Shown here: in pieces, positions 23,881-61,225 of the stretch | How positions within the stretch are numbered: the stretch's first letter is position 1 | Layout: every line of letters starts with the position of its first letter | Assembly (NCBI GenBank): GCA_011525695.1 | Contig: WYBX01000057.1 | Coordinates: 1-64,000, forward strand | Direction: 5' to 3' | From: Verrucomicrobiia bacterium | GTDB taxonomy: Bacteria; Verrucomicrobiota; Verrucomicrobiia; Opitutales; Opitutaceae | DNA length: 64,000 nt | Made by a program: the position numbers and the translations under genes | The notes under the pieces: model-generated | Database searches by the model: none | Seen by the model: the letters and a program-made list of their open reading frames with translations, nothing else | Told to the model about the DNA's origin: nothing

Positions 23881-26445
23881 ATGTCCCCGTCCGAATCCAA
23901 GCTCACGCCGATGATGCAGCAGTACTTCGAGGTCCGCCGCGGGCTGCCGCGCGACACCCTGCTGCTCTTCCGGCTCGGGGATTTCTTCGAGCTCTTCTTC
24001 GAGGATGCCGTCACCGCCTCGCGCCTGCTCGGGATCACCCTCACCCGGCGCCAGGATCACGCCATGGCCGGAATCCCGGCCCACGCCTGCGACACCTATG
24101 TCACCAAGCTGCTGGCCGCGGGAAAGAAGGTTGCGATCTGCGATCAGGCGGAGCCGGCGCGGGCGGGCAAGCTCGTCCGGCGACAGTTGACGCGGATCCT
24201 CTCGCCCGGCACCACCCTCGCGGCCAACCAGCTCGAGAGCACCCGCAACCATTATCTCGCCGCCATCGCGTTTGATCGGGCCGGGCTGCACGCCGCCTGG
24301 CTCGATCTCTCGACCGGGGAGTTCAAGGTCGCCTCGGAGCCGCGGATTTCCGACCTCCTGCCCGTCCTTACGGCGCTCGATCCCGCCGAACTGCTCGTGA
24401 TCGAGGGGGAATGCGAGCGCTGGGCCGCCGCCCCGCACGACCAGGCGGAGGTGCATGCGCTGCAGGCCTTCTGTTCCAGCCGAACCGTGTCCGAACTGCC
24501 CGGATACCATTTCGATCCGGCGGCCGGCAGCCGGACCGTGATGGATGCCGTCGGCGTACTGAGCCTCGAGGGATTCGGTCTCGCGCCCGGCCAGCCCGCC
24601 CTCGGCCCCGCCGGCGCGCTGGTCTACTACGCCACCGAAAACCTTTGCGCCAAGCCGGAGAACCTCCGCGGACTCCAGCAGTACCGCAGCGCGCGTACCC
24701 TGCTCCTCGATCCCGCCACGCTGCGCAATCTCGAGATCTTCACCTCGGTGCGGGGCGGCCGCCCCGGCTCGCTCCTGCACGCCATCGACCGGACCGTCAC
24801 CGCCGCCGGCGCCCGGCTGCTGGAACGCTGGCTGGCCGCGCCCACGCTCGAACCGGCCGAAATCGCCCGCCGCCAGTCGCTCGTCGGCGAACTCCTCGCC
24901 CAGCCCTCCCGGCTCGCCGAACTCCACGATCGGCTCCGGCCCGTGCGCGACATTCCCCGGATTCTCGGCCGGCTGCAAAACCGGCTGCGAAACCCCCGCG
25001 AACTCGGCGGGATTCGCGACACGCTCGCCGAGCTCCCCGCGTTGAAATCCGCCCTCGCCGCCTTCGGTGATGGGCTGGGCCTGGGCTCGCTCAACGCCGA
25101 GTTGCACGAACTGCCCGCGCTGGCCGCCGTCCTGCGCCAGGCGCTGGCTGACGAGCTCCCCAACGATCTCGCGGATGGAAACTACATCCGGGCCGGCCAC
25201 GACGCCGAACTCGACCGGCTGCGTTCGCTCACGACCGACAACAAGACGTGGCTGTCGGACCTCGAACGCTCCGAACAGGAGCGGACCGGAATCCGCAGCC
25301 TGAAAATCCGGTTCACGAACAATTTTGGCTACTACATCGAGGTCACCAAGGCGAACCTGCACCTCGTCCCCTCCGAATACATCCGGCGCCAGACCACCGT
25401 CGGCGGCGAGCGTTATGTGACCGAGGCGCTCAAGCAGAAGGAAAAGGAGATTTTCCACGCGGAGCAGCACTCGCTCGCCCGGGAACAGGAGCTGTTCGCA
25501 CAGCTCGTCTCCCGCGTGCTGGAGGAGTCGGCCGCCCTCGGCCGCACCGCAGAGGCGCTGGCGGAACTGGATGTCCTCGCCGGGTGGGCGCGGCTCGCCC
25601 GCGAATGGGATTACTGCCGGCCGGAACTGGATGCCGGTGACATCCTGGAAATCGCCGACGGCCGCCATCCGGTGGTCGAGCAGATGCTACGCTCGCCGGA
25701 CACTCCGCTGGCCCGGGGCGCCAGCGCGGCCTTCGTTCCCAACGACACGCAGCTCGCCTGCGGCGACGCCCAGATTGCGCTCATCACGGGCCCCAACATG
25801 GCCGGCAAGTCGACCTACATCCGGCAGGTCGCGCTCATCACCCTGATGGCACAGGTGGGTTGCTGGGTTCCGGCCAAAACCTGCCGGATCGGGCTCGTGG
25901 ATCGGATTTTCTCCCGCGTCGGTGCCAGCGATGACCTCGCGCGCGGCAACTCGACCTTCATGGTGGAGATGACGGAGACCGCCAACATCCTGAACAATGC
26001 GACCGAACGATCATTGATCATCCTGGATGAAATCGGCCGCGGCACCTCGACCTACGACGGGCTCGCGATCGCCTGGGCCGTCGTCGAGCATCTGCACCAG
26101 GCTCCGGAACGCGGCCCGCGCACGCTTTTTGCGACGCATTACCAGGAGCTGACCCAGCTCGAAAAGCATCTGCCGCGGCTCCGGAACTTCTCGGTCGCGG
26201 TGAAGGAGTGGAATGACGACATCGTCTTCGTGCGCCGCGTGATCCCCGGCGCGGCGGACCGCAGCTATGGGATCCAGGTGGCCCGGCTCGCCGGGCTGCC
26301 GCTCGGTGTGATCGACCGTGCCAAGACCATCCTCGCCAAGCTCGAGAGCGACGACACGACCGTTTCGCTGCCGGCGCCACAGGCCCGGCCGAAGAAGAAA
26401 ATCACCGTCGCACCGTCGGACGATTCGCAGCTGAGTCTGCTGTGA
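23881..26445 (+). CDS. mutS: DNA mismatch repair protein MutS
   Basis: An 854-residue protein of usual length. Domain I has the mismatch-binding Phe-x-Glu region (GDFFELFFEDA). The connector, lever and clamp regions follow. The C-terminal ATPase has Walker A GPNMAGKST (about 638-646), the signature region ARGNSTFMVEM, Walker B IILDEIGRGTSTYDG and the TLFATHYQEL motif. It recognises base mismatches and small loops and recruits MutL. It stands alone, with HipBST downstream after a 270-nt gap. This is the most secure host gene in the window. Confidence 0.98.
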   Translation: MSPSESKLTPMMQQYFEVRRGLPRDTLLLFRLGDFFELFFEDAVTASRLLGITLTRRQDHAMAGIPAHACDTYVTKLLAAGKKVAICDQAEPARAGKLVRRQLTRILSPGTTLAANQLESTRNHYLAAIAFDRAGLHAAWLDLSTGEFKVASEPRISDLLPVLTALDPAELLVIEGECERWAAAPHDQAEVHALQAFCSSRTVSELPGYHFDPAAGSRTVMDAVGVLSLEGFGLAPGQPALGPAGALVYYATENLCAKPENLRGLQQYRSARTLLLDPATLRNLEIFTSVRGGRPGSLLHAIDRTVTAAGARLLERWLAAPTLEPAEIARRQSLVGELLAQPSRLAELHDRLRPVRDIPRILGRLQNRLRNPRELGGIRDTLAELPALKSALAAFGDGLGLGSLNAELHELPALAAVLRQALADELPNDLADGNYIRAGHDAELDRLRSLTTDNKTWLSDLERSEQERTGIRSLKIRFTNNFGYYIEVTKANLHLVPSEYIRRQTTVGGERYVTEALKQKEKEIFHAEQHSLAREQELFAQLVSRVLEESAALGRTAEALAELDVLAGWARLAREWDYCRPELDAGDILEIADGRHPVVEQMLRSPDTPLARGASAAFVPNDTQLACGDAQIALITGPNMAGKSTYIRQVALITLMAQVGCWVPAKTCRIGLVDRIFSRVGASDDLARGNSTFMVEMTETANILNNATERSLIILDEIGRGTSTYDGLAIAWAVVEHLHQAPERGPRTLFATHYQELTQLEKHLPRLRNFSVAVKEWNDDIVFVRRVIPGAADRSYGIQVARLAGLPLGVIDRAKTILAKLESDDTTVSLPAPQARPKKKITVAPSDDSQLSLL

Positions 26446-27058: not shown

Positions 27059-27363
27059 AGCTCGCCCGCATTTATCAACAGAATCAACTCGCCGGCCTCT
27101 TAGAGGCGCGGGACGACGGCTCGTATTGCTTCACGTATGACGCCGCGTTTAGTGGCGAGCCAGTCTCGCTCACCATGCCGACCAGCCAGCGTGTCTGGGA
27201 ATTCCCCCGCTTCCCGGCGCCGTTCGAGGGATTGCTGCCAGAAGGTGTTCAACTCGATGCGCTGCTCCGGCTACGCAAACTGGATAGCAATGATCTGTTC
27301 GGCCAATTGCTGGCCGTAGGGCACGACGTCGTTGGATCGCTGCGCATTGAGCCTGCCCCATGA
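27055..27363 (+). CDS. hipS: HipS-like small antitoxin (HipA N-subdomain homologue)
   Basis: A 102-residue protein that matches only the N-terminal subdomain of HipA (WEFPRFPAPFEGLLPEGVQL, NDLFGQLLAVGHDVVGSL). In tripartite HipBST systems this subdomain is a separate protein that inhibits the kinase. It begins inside the hipB stop and ends inside the hipT start (both ATGA), so the three proteins are made in fixed order. A hydrophobic frame is open upstream of the ATG and is discussed as a separate observation. Confidence 0.78.
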   Translation: MKLARIYQQNQLAGLLEARDDGSYCFTYDAAFSGEPVSLTMPTSQRVWEFPRFPAPFEGLLPEGVQLDALLRLRKLDSNDLFGQLLAVGHDVVGSLRIEPAP

Positions 27364-28289
27364 GATGCCTGATCACGAATGAGCCTTGGGAGGGATCGGA
27401 GCCGTATTCACCGGCGGGCCTGCGTCTGCTCGACCGGCGTCTGAAGTCCCTGGCGCCACTGCCCTATACGAGAGAACAATTGCTGGAGGAAGCCGCTGCG
27501 CGGGCCGTGAAGATGTCGATCCAAGGCATGCAGCCGAAAGTCAGCACCGTGCTGCGCGTGACCGGAGGCCGCATGGAGATCGTCGACAATGACGGGCGAT
27601 ATATCGTGAAGCCGCCCCATCTCATTTACGCGGAGCTGCCGGAGAACGAGGCGCTCACCATGTCGCTCGCCGCCACGCTGGGAATCGAGGTGCCCGTACA
27701 TGGGCTCCTGCAAAACGGAGACCAAACCCGTTCTTACTTTGTGCGCCGTTTCGACCGAGTCGGCTGGAACAAACAGCCCGTGGAAGATTTTGCGCAGTTG
27801 AGCGGCGCGAGTCGTGAGACGAAATATGACTCCAGCACCGAGCGGCTGATCGAAATCATCGACCGTTTCTGCACCTTCCCTGCCTTGGAACGGATGAGAT
27901 TCCTCGACCGGTTGCTATTCTCCTTCCTGACTGGCAACGAGGACATGCACCTGAAGAACTGGTCGCTCATCACGCGCGATGACAAGGTGGAGCTGTCGCC
28001 CGCCTACGACCTGCTGAATTCGACGATTCCCAATCCGCGCAGCCGGGAGGATCTCGCGCTTCCGCTGCACGGCAAAAAATCCAATCTCCGCGCGAATGAT
28101 TTCTGGCGCTACTTGGCCGGCGAGCGGCTTGGTCTCAGCGCTGCGCTAATCGAGCAGACTCGGGCGCGCTTCGCATCCGCATGTGCGAGCTGGCCGGCGC
28201 GGATCGAAGCGAGCTTTCTCTCGTCCGAAATGAAGACCCGCTATCTCACGTTGCTCGCGCAGCGACGTGAACGACTCGGTGGACTGTGA
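27360..28289 (+). CDS. hipT: HipT-like Ser/Thr kinase toxin
   Basis: A 309-residue kinase with a HipA-type C-terminal fold but no N-subdomain. The Gly-rich loop segment is KMSIQGMQPKVS, with S53 as a likely autophosphorylation site. The catalytic loop is GNEDMHLKN (D195, N200) and the metal-binding Asp is D217 in LSPAYDLL. In the E. coli HipBST system HipT phosphorylates tryptophanyl-tRNA synthetase; the target here is unknown. The split HipS/HipT gene layout is the main evidence for HipBST over classical HipBA. Confidence 0.85.
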   Translation: MRCLITNEPWEGSEPYSPAGLRLLDRRLKSLAPLPYTREQLLEEAAARAVKMSIQGMQPKVSTVLRVTGGRMEIVDNDGRYIVKPPHLIYAELPENEALTMSLAATLGIEVPVHGLLQNGDQTRSYFVRRFDRVGWNKQPVEDFAQLSGASRETKYDSSTERLIEIIDRFCTFPALERMRFLDRLLFSFLTGNEDMHLKNWSLITRDDKVELSPAYDLLNSTIPNPRSREDLALPLHGKKSNLRANDFWRYLAGERLGLSAALIEQTRARFASACASWPARIEASFLSSEMKTRYLTLLAQRRERLGGL

Positions 28290-47549: not shown

Positions 47550-49594
47550 GCATCGCGCACAAGCTCAACGAGCGGATCCGCGCGAGCACCGCGCCGGCCG
47601 TCGAGACGCCGCGCGTCGGCTCCTTCCGGGAGTTCCTGGAGAAATGCGCGCGCGTGCCCGTGGCCAGAGGCGAGTACGGGCCCTATACATTCACGGGCCG
47701 CGAGGCCCTGATCGAGGTCGTCGCCACCATTGACCGTTTCCTGGGCTCCGAAACCGGCACGCCGGTCAAAGACGCCTACCTGGCACTCGCGGGCGGGGCC
47801 CAGTTTGGCAAGTCGATCCTGGAATTGAACCTCGGCGCCTACACGACAGGCATCGCCTGGCATCGCTGGGGCTTCTACCTGCCCGATCACGATTTGGTCG
47901 AAGGCATGGTCGATACCAAGTTCCGGCCGGACATCCTCGATCAGCTCCCCTGGTTCGCCGACATGACGAAAGTCGGCAAGGCGGTCAACAAGTCAGGCAA
48001 GGCGGTGAACCGGAAGGGCGCCTTCTCCGTCACCGACGGCAAGCGCAAGAGCTTCGGAATGATCATCGGACTGAACAAGGTGCCAACTTCGTTCACCTTC
48101 GACATCACGACGAAGGACGAGGTCGACGATATCAAGCCGGCCTTGGACAAGTATGTCGCCGGCCGCATGACCTCGTCGGACTTGCGGTTCACGATCGATA
48201 TCGGCACGCAGCGTGTCGCCGGGCGCGGGATGAACAAGAAGTGGAAGGACGCCAGCCAGGGTGTCACGCTTCACCGCTGTCCCGCCTGTTTCCACGAACA
48301 GAACCTGGAGGAGTCCTTTCCGCAGTGCGTGCGCGTGGCGCTCACGGGCACGCCGCGCACCGATGATCCGCAGCTCACGCACACTGCGGAGTTCAAGCGC
48401 GAGGAAAACGGCCCGGCGCTCGCGACACATGATCCGCAGCATCTGTACTACACCGGCTGCGTGAAGTGCGGCACGGTGCTCGACCGCAGCATCGCCGGGT
48501 TCCGCTGGCATCATCGCAAGCCGGAGCAGCTCCGACTCAACAAGGTCTCGTTCAGGATCTCCCAGCTCGCCATCGCCGCGATCGATCTCTCCCAGATTGT
48601 CGCGCACTGGGCGCGCGCCGTGGTGGATCCGGAGGAGATGGTCGCGTTTCGCTGCGACCGTCTCGGGCTGCCCGAGAGCACCGAGCAGAAGATCAGCGCG
48701 GCCGTGCTCGATCGCGCGCGCCGCGTCGAGACCTATGATCTCCTGCCGAAGGCGCGCGCCGGCTCGCGCGTGTTCGCCGGCCTCGACACCGGGCGGCGCT
48801 GCTGGTTCTTCGCCCGCGAGGTCGAGCAGCCGCACATCAAGCGGGTGATGCACCTGGAGCAGATCGCGCTCGGCAACACGCTCGCGCGCGTCACGCAGCT
48901 GCATGCCTTGCTCGGGGTTTCGTGCCTCTTCATCGACCAGGGGCCGGAAACCGACCTCGCCAGGACACTCGCACTGCGGCTGAACGGGCTGGAGGAACTG
49001 GAGACCTGGCCGGCCGCGCCGAAGGACGCCGATGCGCACGTCACGTTTCCGTCCGGGCTCACGTGGAACGGTGCGCTCACGCGTTGGGAGAACCTCCGCT
49101 GTGCAGTCGTGGCGTTCAACCTGAAGAAGCGCGGCAGCGGGATCCGGCAGGGCTTCGACAGGTTCGAGAAGGCCGGGCGCGACGTCTTCGTGCCGCTTAT
49201 CGAGTGCAACCGGTTCGAGACGATCGACGCGGCCGTGCGCGAATTCCTCACACCTCTGGAGAATGTCGCGGAGGTGGTCGAGATCGAGAAGGGAAGGCCC
49301 TTCATCCGCACCGAGCCGGCGATGCGGCTGCCGCGCAAGGGCGCCGGGGCGCCGCGCGTCCTGGACCAACTCGACGAGCATCTGCTCGTCGGTTCCGAGC
49401 GCGAAGAGGATACCGGCGACTACTTGGACCAGTGCGAGAATCACTTCCTCCTGGCCGATGCATACAGCCGGGCGGCCGAGACGGTCGGCGGCAACGCCAA
49501 GACGCGGCCCCTGGTGATCGAAACGATCGAGCGCCGCGGCGACGAGGCGAGCGCCTTCCGGGAATTTGCCGGCACGAAAGGAGCGCTGTTCTGA
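47546..49594 (+). CDS. Large terminase subunit (GpA-like)
   Basis: A 682-residue ATP-driven packaging motor and nuclease. Walker A is GGAQFGKS (83-90). Two zinc-binding pairs (CPACF near 245, CVKCG near 305) are typical of GpA-type terminases. The nuclease domain begins at FAGLDTGRRCWFF (first Asp), with SCLFIDQGPETD later. The start is TTG, with AGGAGG about 8 nt upstream and the previous stop inside it; the frame is open far upstream but without protein-like sequence. Followed directly by the portal gene. Confidence 0.88.
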   Translation: MSIAHKLNERIRASTAPAVETPRVGSFREFLEKCARVPVARGEYGPYTFTGREALIEVVATIDRFLGSETGTPVKDAYLALAGGAQFGKSILELNLGAYTTGIAWHRWGFYLPDHDLVEGMVDTKFRPDILDQLPWFADMTKVGKAVNKSGKAVNRKGAFSVTDGKRKSFGMIIGLNKVPTSFTFDITTKDEVDDIKPALDKYVAGRMTSSDLRFTIDIGTQRVAGRGMNKKWKDASQGVTLHRCPACFHEQNLEESFPQCVRVALTGTPRTDDPQLTHTAEFKREENGPALATHDPQHLYYTGCVKCGTVLDRSIAGFRWHHRKPEQLRLNKVSFRISQLAIAAIDLSQIVAHWARAVVDPEEMVAFRCDRLGLPESTEQKISAAVLDRARRVETYDLLPKARAGSRVFAGLDTGRRCWFFAREVEQPHIKRVMHLEQIALGNTLARVTQLHALLGVSCLFIDQGPETDLARTLALRLNGLEELETWPAAPKDADAHVTFPSGLTWNGALTRWENLRCAVVAFNLKKRGSGIRQGFDRFEKAGRDVFVPLIECNRFETIDAAVREFLTPLENVAEVVEIEKGRPFIRTEPAMRLPRKGAGAPRVLDQLDEHLLVGSEREEDTGDYLDQCENHFLLADAYSRAAETVGGNAKTRPLVIETIERRGDEASAFREFAGTKGALF

Positions 49595-51150
49595 TGCCGC
49601 GCGAAAAGAAGACCCTTCCGAAGAAGACAGTGCCGCGCGTCGATGCCGAGCGCGCCCGCACTGCGCTCATGGCGCGCAGCGTGACTGCCATCCGTGGACT
49701 CACGCCGGACCGGCTCTCGCGGACGCTGGAAGCATTCGACATGGGCTACCTCCGGGAGGCGACTCTCCTCTGGCAGAAGATCAAGGACCGTTGCGACACC
49801 ACCAAATGCGTCGCGGCGAAGCGTGAAATGGATGCCGCACTCCTCAACTGGGAGGTGCTGACGGTCGACGATTCGCCCGAGGCCAAGCTGCACCAGGAGG
49901 CGCTGCAGGCCGCTTACAACGGCTTGGTGTCCACCGATGCGCTCGACCAGAACAAGCGCGGCGGTGTGGCCACCCTCATCCAGCAGATGATGCACGCGCA
50001 GGGGCACAAGTACGCCGTGCACGAGATCGTCTGGGATCCACGCGGCGCGGACCTGACCGCCGAATTTCGTTTCGTGCCGCTCCAGTTCTTCGAGAACACG
50101 GCCGGGCGGCTGCGTTTTCTTCCCACCGAGTTTGCGGCGTTGGGCGAGGATTTGGAGGATGCAGGCTGGATGGTGACCGTCGGCGCCGGCCTGATGGAGG
50201 CGACCTCGATCGCGTACCTCTTCAAGGTGACGCCGCTCCGGGCGTGGCTGGTCTTCTGTGACAAGGTCGGGATGCCGGGCCTTCACGGACAGACGGATGC
50301 AACCCAGGGCTCTCCTGAATGGATCCGGTTTCGCGATGCGCTCGCCTCCTTTGGCGAGGATTGGGCGCTTCTCACGAGCACCGCCGCGAAGATTACACCC
50401 ATCGACCTGAAGGCCGGTGGCCAGCTACCGCACCCACTCCTGGTCGACCGGATGGATCGCGCAATCAGCCGCCTCTGGCGTGGCAATGATCTCGGCACCA
50501 TGGCGAAGGACGGCCAGGCGGTGGGCGCCAACCCCCAGGAGAGCGAGACTGACATCCTTGGAGCGGCCGACGCCCTCCTCATCAGTGAGGCTCTCCAGCA
50601 CTATTTTGACCGGCCGCTCATCCGCTATCGGTTCGGCACCGAGCCCAAGGCGTACTTCCAGCTCCAGCCGAAGACCAAGGTTAACCACGACGTGGAGCTG
50701 CGGATCGATGATTACCTGATCAAGTGGGGTGTGCAGCGCGGGAAGCGCGAACTGCTCCAGCGCTATGGCCGGCCCGAGATGGAGCCCCAGGACGAACCGG
50801 CCACGGCACCCAGCATGCCGGCCGCGCCGGTCGGCGGCGCCCAATTCCTCGGCAACGAGGCCGCCGTGCTCGGAGCGGACACCCTTTTCAAGGCCAACGC
50901 GGCCGCCCAGGAACTGGCCGCCAGGCGACCCGTATTCCGGCCGGTCGCGGAGCAACTCGCCCGGTTGCTGGCGATGGAACCGGCCGCCCGTGCCGTTGCG
51001 GCGGCGGAGATGCGGATCACTTCGGGTCAGCTCGCCCGCTCAGTTCTGGCGCAGGCCCCCGACCTTGCCCGGCCGGTCGCGGAAGCCATCGGGGCCGCCG
51101 TGGCCTCCGGAATGGCCGAAAACGCCGCCAAAACCGCCCAGAAACGATGA
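49594..51150 (+). CDS. Portal protein (DUF935/Mu gp29-like)
   Basis: A 518-residue protein. The DUF935 core is recognisable (RTLEAFDMGYLREATLLWQK, MDAALLNWEVLTVDD, WLVFCDKVGMPGLHGQTD, WALLTSTAAKITPIDLK). It forms the dodecameric ring through which DNA enters the head. Its start shares one base with the terminase stop. The C-terminal region (from about 400) carries the LGNE tetrapeptide seen in the next genes. The order terminase, portal, protease is that of Mu-like phages. Confidence 0.88.
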   Translation: MPREKKTLPKKTVPRVDAERARTALMARSVTAIRGLTPDRLSRTLEAFDMGYLREATLLWQKIKDRCDTTKCVAAKREMDAALLNWEVLTVDDSPEAKLHQEALQAAYNGLVSTDALDQNKRGGVATLIQQMMHAQGHKYAVHEIVWDPRGADLTAEFRFVPLQFFENTAGRLRFLPTEFAALGEDLEDAGWMVTVGAGLMEATSIAYLFKVTPLRAWLVFCDKVGMPGLHGQTDATQGSPEWIRFRDALASFGEDWALLTSTAAKITPIDLKAGGQLPHPLLVDRMDRAISRLWRGNDLGTMAKDGQAVGANPQESETDILGAADALLISEALQHYFDRPLIRYRFGTEPKAYFQLQPKTKVNHDVELRIDDYLIKWGVQRGKRELLQRYGRPEMEPQDEPATAPSMPAAPVGGAQFLGNEAAVLGADTLFKANAAAQELAARRPVFRPVAEQLARLLAMEPAARAVAAAEMRITSGQLARSVLAQAPDLARPVAEAIGAAVASGMAENAAKTAQKR

Positions 51151-52487
51151 ACCGCCGTTGCCCTTTCCTTTCGCATTTCCCGGAAAACAGCCCCGGTCAT
51201 ACGCAGGTCGGCCGAATTATTGCGCTGCGCGCCTTTGCAAGCCCAATGCAAGCCGGTTCTGCGTCCCGCCAGACCGGAAAATGGGTGCCATTGGCCAACG
51301 AAGCCCCGCCGGCCGGGATCCCGTTTGTCGGTCTGGGCAACGAGTCCGCCAGCCTGACAGAGGACGGCTGGGCGCGTGTTCCCTACGGTGAATGGACGCA
51401 CGAGAAGGGTCTGCAGCGGTTTGGTCGGGCCGAGGCGGAGGAGATCGTCGGCTACTTCCGGAACACCTGGAATCGGATCAAGCGGGCAATCACCGGCCTT
51501 CCTATCTACCGGGGCCACCCGGATCTCGTCGACGAAGCCCTCAAGCAGCGGGATGCGCTCGCCAACGAGCAGGATCGCCGGGCGCTCGATCTCCAGATTG
51601 CCGAGTATCGCCGCCGGTGGCCGGACCGCCGCGAGTACGGCTCGATCGCCGACATGGAGGCTCGGGAGGATGCGCTCTATCTGCGCCCGGTGCTCACGCC
51701 GGCCGGCGCCGCCCTGGTGAACGAGCAGGGTCTGAAGTTCTTCTCGCCGCACTGGCTCGGGAAGCAGCTCGGCAGCGGCACCGACGGCAAGCCGATCTAC
51801 GGGCCGGCGTTCCTGCTCAGCATTGGGCTCACCGACCGGCCGAACATCGCCGGCACCTCGCTTGTGAATTCCGCGCCCGGTTCGGGCGCACAGTCCAACC
51901 CGCAACAGAAAACCACCATGCCTCAATGGCTCATTGAACTGCTCGGCCTCGCCAACGAGGCGCCCGAGACCCAGGAAACCAAAGCGAAGGCGCTCGTCGC
52001 AGCGCTTCTGAAGCGTCCGGAGCCCACCGCTCTGGCCAACGAACAAACCGCCCGCACGACGGCCGAGTCCCAGCTCTCCGAAGTGAAGGGCAAGCTCGCC
52101 ACCGCCGAAACGTCGCTGGCCAACGAGCGCACCGCCCACGCCGCGACGATCAAGGCGCGCAACGAGGCGCTGGTGGGGGCGGCAATCAGGGAAGGCCGGA
52201 TCACCGAGGCCGCGAAGCCGGTCTGGCTCGGCCGGCTGGAGCGCGATTTCGCGAACGAGAGCGTGGCGCTCGCCAACGAGCAAAGCGGCATCAAGACGCA
52301 GCCCCGCACCGCCCAGCTCGGCGAGCGCAAGGTCAACGTGACCGCCCGCGACCAGTTCACCGCCCTGGTGAACGAGGCGATGCCGCGGCACGAGAACAAC
52401 TGGGAGCGCGCGTGGCATGCGGTCAAAGCCACGACCCAGGGCAAGGCGCTCTACGATCAAATGCAGGACAGCGCGCCGGCTAAGTAA
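51147..52487 (+). CDS. Head maturation protease/scaffold (Mu I-like)
   Basis: A 446-residue protein. Residues about 110-235 fit the Mu I protease family (LPIYRGHPD, WPDRREYGSI, EDALYLRPVLTPAG, FFSPHW). After about 265 a coiled-coil scaffold region follows (SQLSEVKGKLATAETSLANE). Remarkably, the tetrapeptide (L/F/V)(A/G/V)NE occurs ten times along the chain. In Mu the scaffold is also made alone from an internal start; an ATG near 51918 (MPQWLIELLGLANE) could do this. Overlaps the portal stop by ATGA. Confidence 0.85.
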   Translation: MNRRCPFLSHFPENSPGHTQVGRIIALRAFASPMQAGSASRQTGKWVPLANEAPPAGIPFVGLGNESASLTEDGWARVPYGEWTHEKGLQRFGRAEAEEIVGYFRNTWNRIKRAITGLPIYRGHPDLVDEALKQRDALANEQDRRALDLQIAEYRRRWPDRREYGSIADMEAREDALYLRPVLTPAGAALVNEQGLKFFSPHWLGKQLGSGTDGKPIYGPAFLLSIGLTDRPNIAGTSLVNSAPGSGAQSNPQQKTTMPQWLIELLGLANEAPETQETKAKALVAALLKRPEPTALANEQTARTTAESQLSEVKGKLATAETSLANERTAHAATIKARNEALVGAAIREGRITEAAKPVWLGRLERDFANESVALANEQSGIKTQPRTAQLGERKVNVTARDQFTALVNEAMPRHENNWERAWHAVKATTQGKALYDQMQDSAPAK

Positions 52488-52558
52488 GCGCCGCCCGGTC
52501 CCATCACTCCACCCGATACGTTTCCACCCGCACTCATCACCTAAACTCAACTTCGATC

Positions 52559-53200
52559 ATGCACGTGATTCTCTCACTCGCACTGCTCCTCGTCGCGGTT
52601 CTGCTCATTTCGAGCTGGATCGCCTCCCGCCCTCGCGGCCACCTGCTCGCCTCCCTCGCCAATGTTGCCGAAGGCTTCTATCCGGGTCGCAAGACCTACA
52701 AGACCGACGCGGCAGTCGGCACCCGCTATCTGCTTGGAAAGATAGGCAGTGACCTGTCGCACGTCGCCGTATGCGGCGCAGCCGACAAGCCGCTGGGCAT
52801 CATTTCCGATGAAGCGGCCGCCGCCGAGGACCTCGTCAACGTCGATCTGCTGGGTACGACAACGGAGACCAAAATCGGCGTTGCCAGCGAGGCGATCGCC
52901 GTTGGGGCCGACGTCTACACCGCGGCCGACGGCAAGGTGCAGGACGAGCCTGCCGCCGCCGGCACCTATTGGCGGATCGGCAAGGCGCTTTCCGCGGCCG
53001 GCGCCGATGACGACCAAATCGAGTTCGATCCCCATGCGCCGGTCCGGGTGGTGGTCCTGGCGGAATTGACGGCCCCCGACACGGCCGACGGCTCCGACGC
53101 GGGCACCACGCAGACGCTCGCCAACGCCCTGAAGGCCGACCTTGCCGCCTTGGAGGCGGCTCTGGCGACGCCCGCCGAAATCAAGCTGCTGAACAGCTGA
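52559..53200 (+). CDS. DUF2190-like capsid cement protein with N-terminal hydrophobic segment
   Basis: A 213-residue protein. Residues 45-175 fit DUF2190 decoration proteins (KPLGIISDEA, EAIAVGADVYTAADGKVQDE, YWRIGKALSAAGADDDQIEF). The first 25 residues are a strong hydrophobic helix (VILSLALLLVAVLLISSW), unusual for a virion protein. Perhaps the start is wrong or it passes through the membrane. It lies between protease and capsid genes, the usual place. Confidence 0.7.
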   Translation: MHVILSLALLLVAVLLISSWIASRPRGHLLASLANVAEGFYPGRKTYKTDAAVGTRYLLGKIGSDLSHVAVCGAADKPLGIISDEAAAAEDLVNVDLLGTTTETKIGVASEAIAVGADVYTAADGKVQDEPAAAGTYWRIGKALSAAGADDDQIEFDPHAPVRVVVLAELTAPDTADGSDAGTTQTLANALKADLAALEAALATPAEIKLLNS

Positions 53201-53270
53201 CGCGCGGGTCATCCCGCTTTCCTGCACCGCACAGTCTCACCCTCAGTCTCACTCTTTTCTTCACACAGAT

Positions 53271-54299
53271 ATGAATGCTCTCCGCACCACCACCGGGATC
53301 GCGCTCGCCGCCGGCGGCTTCATCCCGCTTGTCTCACTCGGCAACGAGGCGAAGGTCATCCCCGACTCCGCCGACCTCACGCCGGGCATGATTGCCCTCG
53401 CCAACGAGGCCCGCTTCACCTCCGCGCACTACAGCGAGGCGCTCACGCAGTTCACCGTCGGCTTCCGTGACTCGGAAAACATCCAGGCGACACTCGATTA
53501 CATCGCTCCGCCGGTGCCCGTAGGCCGCCGCTTCGAGTACAAGGTCGGTGAAAACTCCGACTTCTTCATCGCCCCGATCGATGACGAGCGCGCGATCGGC
53601 TCCGGCTTCAAGCGCATCGAGACCAAGGGCAGGACCGAAAACGGCAAGACCGCCAATCGTGGTCTCACCTACCGGCTCGATCGCGACGAGGAAGGCGCGA
53701 TCGTCTCCGAAGAGCGCATCGTGTCGATGCTGCAGACGGCAATCCTGCGCAGCAAACTGCGCCGCGGTATCACGGTCCTGCTCGCGCTCGACAATGCCGG
53801 CACGGCCGCTGTGTTCTCATCGGCCACTCAGCCGGACGAATTGATCCGGGCGCAGGTCGCCGCCGCCCAGCTCGCCTCAGGGGTGTTCCCGAACCGGGCC
53901 CTCATTGGCCTCGTCGCCTGGAACTATCGCGCCGCCGCGCTGGCCCCGCAGGAGAACGCCGGCGCCGCGGCCGGCTATAACATGACGCCCGATCAGGTTG
54001 GCCAAATGCTGGGCCTCGATTCGATGAAGCTCTCACGCGAGCTGTATCAATCGAGCGTGGCCGGCAAGACCCGGATCATGACCTCGAACGTCGTCGTGTT
54101 CAACGGCAACGACGGGCTCATGAAAGACGATCCGTCGAACATCAAGCAGTTCTACACCCCGACCGAAGGCGGCGGCCGCTGGCGGGTGTACCGCCAGGAG
54201 GTCGGTGCGAAGTTTATCGATTTCACGGTCGAGCACTACGACCTGATTGTCGGCACCTCGACGGTCGGAGCGAAGAAGCTGAACGTCACGAACACCTGA
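53271..54299 (+). CDS. Major capsid protein
   Basis: A 342-residue protein. Position after the protease and cement genes, length, and a mixed alpha/beta sequence with the P-domain-like VFPNRALIGLVAWNYRAAAL and the C-terminal FIDFTVEHYDLIVG support an HK97-fold capsid. The N-terminal 45 residues carry two LGNE/LANE tetrapeptides and may be a removed delta-domain. No strong ribosome site is seen. A long hairpin follows the stop. Confidence 0.82.
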   Translation: MNALRTTTGIALAAGGFIPLVSLGNEAKVIPDSADLTPGMIALANEARFTSAHYSEALTQFTVGFRDSENIQATLDYIAPPVPVGRRFEYKVGENSDFFIAPIDDERAIGSGFKRIETKGRTENGKTANRGLTYRLDRDEEGAIVSEERIVSMLQTAILRSKLRRGITVLLALDNAGTAAVFSSATQPDELIRAQVAAAQLASGVFPNRALIGLVAWNYRAAALAPQENAGAAAGYNMTPDQVGQMLGLDSMKLSRELYQSSVAGKTRIMTSNVVVFNGNDGLMKDDPSNIKQFYTPTEGGGRWRVYRQEVGAKFIDFTVEHYDLIVGTSTVGAKKLNVTNT

Positions 54300-59341: not shown

Positions 59342-61225
59342 GTGGCCGACTCCTGGGATCACGTCTTCACCGTCGACCGCGCACCCGTCGTCCGTGCGGG
59401 AGCTGCCTCGTTCCTGGGTCAGGCTGAGCTCGCCGCCCGCGGCCGGCTGCGGCACTTGGGCCATGCCGCGTTCGAGGGCGAGAGCGCCCTGGCGGCGGCC
59501 GGAGTCATCGCCATACCCGTTGATGAGATCCTGACACTCGAGGGCCTCACCCTCGATGAGCTTATTACGCCTTCGGCCTTCAATCTCGCTCGCGTGCATG
59601 GCGGCACGCCGGGGACATGGGTGATACCCGCCGGCACCGATAACGATCACACCTACGTCAGCGCCGACAATATCGTCCGGCGCACACCGCTGCTGGTGAA
59701 CGGCGTCCCGCATCGGGGACTAGGGGGCACGCGTGGATTCCGATTCGTTCACTCGGATGCGCCTAACGAAACAGATATCGACGGGATGCGCTGGAGCCTC
59801 CCGTTGCCGTTCGATGGTGTGAACTTCACGCTCACCGCACTCGTTACATTCAATGCGACCAACGATCCGGCGTTGTCACAGAATGTAGCAATGGACCTGC
59901 TGACGATCTATGAAGGAGGAGGACGGTTCGCCGTTTTCCAGCAGAACATGCAGTTCAACGGCACCGGCAATGTCTTGCAGGCACACGGCGCCGACGAGAC
60001 CGGCACCACCACACGTGGCCGCAAGGTGGCGATTGGGCCCGGAGTGGCGTATTCGGTCTCGCTTCGCTACAACGGCACTCTTGGCCGAGTGGAGGCCGTG
60101 GCGATCGACAACGCTACAGGCGCATTGGTTGGCGCGTCGTGGTGCCCATCGGACATCCAAGGCAAGACGCCGAGCTTTGTGCTCATCCACGACTATCTGC
60201 GTCGCTTCGGAGGACACACCCAAGTCGACATGCCTGCCTTTGACTTCACGCACGCCGCGCTGCCATTGGAACCGGTCGATGTGCCCGCCACGGCAGATCT
60301 GCTCGCCGTCCAGTCAAGCATCAGCGAGGTCACCCTCACGTGGACGTCGCCGGCGATGTATTTCAAGATCGAGCGTAGCGATGGCGGAGGGTGGACCACG
60401 ATCGAGGAGGCCTACGGCGACTCTGGCGCCGATTTGGCCTTCTTTTCTTACACTGATCTCACAGTGGAAGATATCGTCACCTACACGTACCGCATGACGG
60501 CGATTGTAGGTGACTGGCGCTCCAGCAGCTTTGCGGCGGCACCGATCACGATCGATAACGACGCATTCGTCCCGCCAGCGCCGGAGCTATTGCATTGGCC
60601 GCTTAATGATGGCGACGGCACGGCGATCTCGGCGGCTGTTGGCCCGGCCGGCACAACCGATGGCACCTGGACTTCAGAGACGGCGTCCGCCGGAGGATTC
60701 TGCCTCGCACTGAACGGCAGCGGGCAGAAGGCCGCTACAAATGCCGCAGTGACGTTTGCGGCCAATAAACTTACGCTGTCGCTCTGGCTCTATGGCACGA
60801 GCTTTTCCACGGACGGAACCTATCAAGTCCTTATCGCTAGCCGCGATGCCACTTCCCCCAGCAGCGCCGCCACGTTCCTGGTCTATGTGCGTTTCAATGT
60901 GTTATCGGTGGCAGTGACCCAAGGTTTCGCGCAGCGGCTCACGAGTTATGCCCTGCCGACCCCCAATGCTTGGCACCACGTACTTATCGAGGTGGACAAC
61001 TCGACCCTCACGGGTGCGGTCGCGGTTTACATCGACAACGCATTACGGACCCCCACGGCAAACATTTCGGACAAGAATGCTTCCGGAGACTTCGCTGCCG
61101 CGGTCGTGCGCTTGGGCGGCTTATCGGCTTCTGGCTCGTTCCCTGGCCGGATTGACGACGTGCGCATCTACAACCGCTCCCTCACCTCGCAGGAGCGGGC
61201 AGCGCTCGCCTTCGTGGCGGAGTGA
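59342..61225 (+). CDS. LamG/FN3 tail adhesin
   Basis: A 627-residue protein with a GTG start. Residues about 90-310 look like a first concanavalin-like sandwich, about 315-410 an FN3 domain (EVTLTWTSPAMYFKIERSDG), and about 425-627 a LamG domain (ELLHWPLNDGDGTAISAAVG, PGRIDDVRIYNRSLTSQERA). It is probably the receptor-binding adhesin, with glycans as likely targets. It lies before the chaperones and tape measure, an unusual place. Confidence 0.75.
   Translation: MADSWDHVFTVDRAPVVRAGAASFLGQAELAARGRLRHLGHAAFEGESALAAAGVIAIPVDEILTLEGLTLDELITPSAFNLARVHGGTPGTWVIPAGTDNDHTYVSADNIVRRTPLLVNGVPHRGLGGTRGFRFVHSDAPNETDIDGMRWSLPLPFDGVNFTLTALVTFNATNDPALSQNVAMDLLTIYEGGGRFAVFQQNMQFNGTGNVLQAHGADETGTTTRGRKVAIGPGVAYSVSLRYNGTLGRVEAVAIDNATGALVGASWCPSDIQGKTPSFVLIHDYLRRFGGHTQVDMPAFDFTHAALPLEPVDVPATADLLAVQSSISEVTLTWTSPAMYFKIERSDGGGWTTIEEAYGDSGADLAFFSYTDLTVEDIVTYTYRMTAIVGDWRSSSFAAAPITIDNDAFVPPAPELLHWPLNDGDGTAISAAVGPAGTTDGTWTSETASAGGFCLALNGSGQKAATNAAVTFAANKLTLSLWLYGTSFSTDGTYQVLIASRDATSPSSAATFLVYVRFNVLSVAVTQGFAQRLTSYALPTPNAWHHVLIEVDNSTLTGAVAVYIDNALRTPTANISDKNASGDFAAAVVRLGGLSASGSFPGRIDDVRIYNRSLTSQERAALAFVAE

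Follow-up and report, generated by a model that had tools for sequence, protein, structure and literature searches.

The prohead protease of phage T4, gp21, recognizes the motif L/I-x-E. Sites with such a short motif, ending in Glu, are cut in both scaffold and shell proteins (PMC9026906). The proteases gp175 of phiKZ and gp245 of SPN3US use the motifs S/A-x-E and A-x-E, and redundant short cut signals are known in the head propeptides of these phages (PMC9026906, PMC10052503). In the cryo-EM structure of phage Mu, the last 124 residues of the portal are missing, a loss ascribed in that study to protease I (PMC11915804). The capsid N-terminus of phage XM1 is probably cut (PMC10457771); this phage was left out of our comparison because its protease candidate is different. 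The statement on the Mu portal is the only one we found in the open-access literature that bears on the cleavage of Mu-like heads, and no report on their cleavage motifs was found there.

Here we analyse a Mu-like head module in which the tetrapeptide [LV][AGV]NE recurs in the portal, the protease/scaffold and the capsid. The original prediction had proposed either a protease cleavage signal or a docking motif. We conclude that the word is very probably a lineage-specific signal by which the phage's own prohead protease recognizes its cut sites.

The head module and its protease

The window, a 64-kb stretch of DNA from a Verrucomicrobiia bacterium, consists in its left part of ordinary chromosome (mutS, transketolase), while its right part carries the head module, whose closest loci in the named collection are found in Opitutaceae and other Verrucomicrobia. 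The plus strand encodes a Mu-type portal protein of 518 residues (49594-51150; Pfam PF06074, E = 8e-49), a head maturation protease of 446 residues with a fused scaffold (51147-52487; PF10123 Mu-like_Pro, E = 2e-11; PHROG head maturation protease) and a major capsid protein of 342 residues (53271-54299), assigned from a weak PHROG major head protein match, gene order and homologues. A cement protein (PF09956) lies at 52559-53200. The protease scores 44.6 bits, above the curated PF10123 cut-off of 25.2 bits, and its gene neighbours are Mu-type portal, cement and capsid genes, as in Mu-like head modules. Three other genes were seen in passing: a D12-class adenine DNA methyltransferase (PF02086, 55150-55980) is inserted among the small head genes of the head-tail run, a protein with a Laminin-G-like (concanavalin-type lectin) domain, possibly a carbohydrate-binding tail protein, is encoded in the tail region (59342-61225), and a HipA C-terminal domain protein, possibly a toxin-antitoxin kinase, is found upstream of the prophage region (27360-28286).

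The protease was modelled with AlphaFold2 (mean pLDDT 81, pTM 0.50). The three best PDB matches of the model in Foldseek are all T4 gp21 (5jbl), with probabilities of 0.87-0.98 and modest E-values of 0.008-0.018; the global TM-score is low, and the next fold match, a weak one, is the cytomegalovirus (HCMV) protease. A search by sequence returned no solved structure for the window capsid or protease, a polyprotein chain at E = 0.63 being a chance match. Two residues are predicted to be catalytic, His124 in the motif GHPD (51516-51518, plus strand), which is nearly invariant in 48 relatives, and Ser200 in the motif SPHW (51744-51746, plus strand), the putative nucleophile, which is invariant in the same number. 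Downstream of the protease, the scaffold region is helical in the model. With Met at 51918, it may also be produced from an internal start (MPQWLIELL, 51918-52487, plus strand), at a position analogous to that of gene Z within gene I of Mu.

A tetrapeptide repeated in three head proteins

A six-frame scan of the window yielded 13 matches to [LV][AGV]NE, of which 12 are in frame in the portal C-terminal tail (1), the protease/scaffold (9) and the capsid N-terminus (2); the remaining match, at 25743 on the minus strand, is antisense to mutS. The original counts for portal and capsid were thus reproduced, and the "about ten" copies claimed for the protease/scaffold correspond to 9 strict words, or 11 with the variants FANE and ARNE. 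The claim of related NE words in the tail chaperones was not supported for the strict word, which is present in no genes other than the portal, protease/scaffold and capsid genes.

All copies described here lie on the plus strand. The portal word, LGNE (50848-50859), is located 96 residues before the C-terminus. In the protease domain, LANE (51291-51302) is found in the N-terminal region, LGNE (51333-51344) in a stretch modelled with low confidence and likely disordered, a second LANE (51558-51569) in a loop between two helices right after the predicted catalytic His motif, and LVNE (51714-51725) at the end of a helix right before the predicted catalytic Ser strand. The variant LVNS (51861-51872) marks the protease-scaffold junction, where the aligned place holds the local word in most of the relatives listed. 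The scaffold contains LANE at 51948-51959, 52032-52043, 52116-52127 and 52269-52280, the weak variant ARNE (52155-52166), FANE (52248-52259) and, in its C-terminal region, LVNE (52365-52376). In the capsid, LGNE (53337-53348) and LANE (53397-53408) occupy residues 23-26 and 43-46.

Composition shuffles of the protease gave a mean of 0.059 words against 9 observed, and none of 100000 shuffles reached 9. The corresponding means were 0.044 for the capsid (2 observed; fraction 0.00075) and 0.029 for the portal (1 observed; fraction 0.028, which is weak alone). At the DNA level, the pattern occurs 12 times; shuffles gave 2.3, and none of 100 reached 12. The whole genome (6.54 Mb, both strands), for which the null is a count of this DNA pattern, contains 296 matches, 11 of them inside the 2.6 kb of the head genes. 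The excess is limited to the protease (about 30-fold), the portal and the capsid of the Verrucomicrobial family, other genes showing 1.3- to 1.7-fold. The word is enriched in the types of protein known as prohead-protease substrates and at the places expected for them: portal tail, capsid front and protease-scaffold junction.

Protease words across Mu-like phages

We compared 154 non-redundant Mu-like loci with complete portal and protease, taken from a search of the phylum, viral contigs, species genomes and named phages (Mu, B3, SuMu, YPCBV-1, a Mannheimia phage and JBD30). The window protease alone, as a protein query, gave no match in viral contigs and only two weak ones in the phage collection; portal alignments recovered relatives where this query did not. 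The motif count in homologues, which had been suggested as a check, gave a divided answer: the exact tetrapeptide is kept in closer relatives, while distant ones use another word, which changes in all proteins of one phage together. In the closest relative (L029, whose protease is 64% identical), the word is kept at places of the same kind, as LVNE in the portal tail and as LGNE and LANE at the start of the capsid. The words repeated in the protease/scaffold follow the lineage: LANE, AANE, ALNS or xNR in relatives of the window phage, the more distant of which have AANA/AANS, ALNS or xNR; ALSA in Mu; FAE in B3. What stays constant among relatives of the window phage is the Asn, with E, A, S, T or R as the next residue according to lineage; the logos that show this were anchored by search expressions, so that their fixed positions are partly built in. 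One genome (G255:C1) holds two closely similar Mu-like prophages with a word of the N-S/T type.

The same words appear in the portal tails. The protease word of Mu, ALSA, recurs in its portal tail (EAALSAED), and that of B3, EFAE, in the tail sequence TEFAEGD. Mu I/Z and the portal gp29 resemble the window proteins in belonging to PF10123 and PF06074 and in this recurrence, but differ in the word itself; B3 and its relatives have the same architecture and likewise repeat their word in the portal tail, but it reads F-A-E/D/A. The portal word typically lies 84-109 residues from the C-terminus. When whole portals were scanned, the median distance of the best strong protease word was 100, 88 and 86 residues in the Verrucomicrobial, Mu and B3 families, based on only the 41, 7 and 9 loci with a strong enough word, and this distance is thus conserved in all three.

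We then scored whether the most over-represented 3- or 4-residue word of each protease is also present in the last 120 residues of the portal. Over the 154 loci, own tails scored 4.45, compared to 2.14 for tails of other groups, 1.46 for the own portal body and 2.05 for shuffled own tails (p = 1e-19 to 5e-22 over the three controls, uncorrected for shared ancestry). Own portals also scored higher than mismatched ones within the Verrucomicrobial family (n = 96, p = 3e-10), the B3 family (n = 27, p = 3e-5) and, more weakly, the Mu family (n = 31, p = 0.003), again uncorrected for shared ancestry; co-inheritance within one genome could inflate this matching. In 18 of the 154 loci, no repeated word was common to protease and portal tail, and several of these (L033, L044, L300, L304, L306) have short tail-less portals. 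Portals of only 391-420 residues, without C-terminal tail and mostly without portal word, characterize L033, L036, L044, L300, L303, L304 and L306. Portal trimming may have been lost in these relatives, and the L033 group keeps the capsid words.

At the capsid front the families diverge. The first 70 capsid residues of the Verrucomicrobial family have a word score of 4.12, against 1.26 for the capsid body and 1.17 after shuffling. No word excess was found over the same residues in the Mu family (0.92, against 1.12 for the body and 1.05 shuffled) or the B3 family (0.66, against 0.67 and 0.68), and ALSA is absent from the capsid start of Mu. The wordless front of the Mu family fits the Mu record, in which amino acid sequencing confirmed the start of the capsid protein, which is uncut. 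Finally, where the protease is rich in NE, the portal tail (p = 3e-6) and the capsid front (p = 3e-7) tend to contain NE as well, both values being uncorrected for shared ancestry.

Alternative readings and proposed processing

The word might be a signal or repeat element of the DNA that reads LANE in frame by chance. AACGAG is indeed frequent, with 29 copies on the plus strand and 14 on the minus strand. However, although the Asn of the words is always AAC in this locus, the Leu codon and the second codon (GCC, GGC or GTG) vary, Glu is GAG or GAA, the ten words of the locus represent seven distinct 12-mers, and every copy is in the coding frame of its gene. Across relatives, the codons of the word shift with GC content (AAC in 1 of 6 at 52% GC, 10 of 10 here) but its peptide does not, which shows that the peptide is what is kept. 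We regard a DNA-level origin as scarcely credible. As a by-product of sequence, the word would arise from the composition or the coiled-coil repeats of an Ala/Leu-rich helical scaffold, which would explain why several copies sit in predicted long helices. This origin would explain neither the difference between 0.06 copies in composition shuffles and 9 observed, nor the copies located in the portal tail, in the capsid arm, at domain boundaries and in disordered regions, nor the absence of a comparable excess from other genes, and it appears highly improbable.

Homology alone is another reading: the residues would simply be conserved, and the words of one phage would match through joint inheritance of the genes and not through any functional link. 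The capsid and junction sites do lie at homologous positions. Yet the residue that follows Asn agrees among portal, protease and capsid, which are not related to one another, and the multiple scaffold copies change their word together; this explanation is quite unlikely. Somewhat less improbable, but still unlikely, is the docking motif of the original prediction, a short linear peptide through which scaffold, portal and capsid would bind one common partner during assembly. The repetition of short words in the portal, capsid arm and scaffold would be seen in that case too, and the word would be expected to co-vary with that partner. Docking gives a poor account, however, of the words within the protease domain and at its junction with the scaffold, mature Mu particles lack the portal C-terminus (PMC11915804), and the words resemble the cut-site pattern of T4 gp21. 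The cleavage signal, by contrast, has strong support, for the positions of the words, their co-variation across phages and the gp21-like fold are as it predicts, and it has a precedent in Mu.

As a cleavage signal, the word would be cut by the protease at every copy once the prohead has assembled. One cut would take about 97 residues (about 9.9 kDa) from the portal C-terminus, reducing it from 56.8 to 46.9 kDa, and one or two cuts would shorten the capsid at its N-terminus by about 45 residues, from 36.9 to 32.5 kDa for a cut at the LANE of residues 43-46. About eleven cuts would detach the scaffold from the protease and break the two into small fragments, 7 to 78 residues long if all eleven xxNE words were used. 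We propose that this would clear the shell and switch off the protease. In Mu, ALSA occupies portal residues 428-431, inside the missing stretch; the cryo-EM model ends at residue 388, 40 residues before it, so that a cut at ALSA is compatible with the 124 missing residues without these pinning the site. The shift predicted for such a cut is 9 kDa, and the Mu portal reportedly shifts from an apparent 64 to 54 kDa.

As for the bond, a cut after Asn (LAN↓E) is weakly favoured over one after Glu (LANE↓), since Asn is constant in relatives. It would also place a hydrophobic residue at P3, as in T4, in all three families (L-A-N, L-S-A, F-A-E). P1 would then be Asn and not the Glu of T4; for a cut after Glu, many relatives have no Glu at that place. 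The best fold match, a short hydrophobic-x-residue word and the predicted cutting of scaffold and propeptides liken the system to T4 gp21, but Asn is fixed in the window phage and its relatives, the scaffold is fused to the protease, and a portal cut is predicted here whereas the T4 portal is uncleaved (PMC9026906). The LANE↓ reading, which has a hydrophobic residue at P4, fits the A-x-E motif of phiKZ gp175 and SPN3US gp245 (PMC9026906, PMC10052503). Redundant propeptide sites and the cutting of both portal and capsid, predicted in the window phage, are further likenesses, but the propeptides of those phages are mostly N-terminal and relatives of the window phage do not conserve the Glu.

As far as the open-access literature shows, signals of this kind in Mu-like phages, their Asn-centred form and a lineage-specific word consistent across a phage's own proteins are new. 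We suggest tentatively that the specificity of Mu-like head proteases drifts by lineage and that some ten cut sites, spread over three unrelated proteins, change along with it, which would amount to a private processing code readable from sequence. If true, such a code might prevent a phage from processing the heads of another that infects the same cell. Cleavage words could be read from genomes, as the repeat in the protease/scaffold that returns at fixed places in portal and capsid, and would predict the ends of mature proteins for many uncultured phages. Mu-like phages would then offer a natural series of co-evolving protease-substrate sets in which to study how specificity changes.
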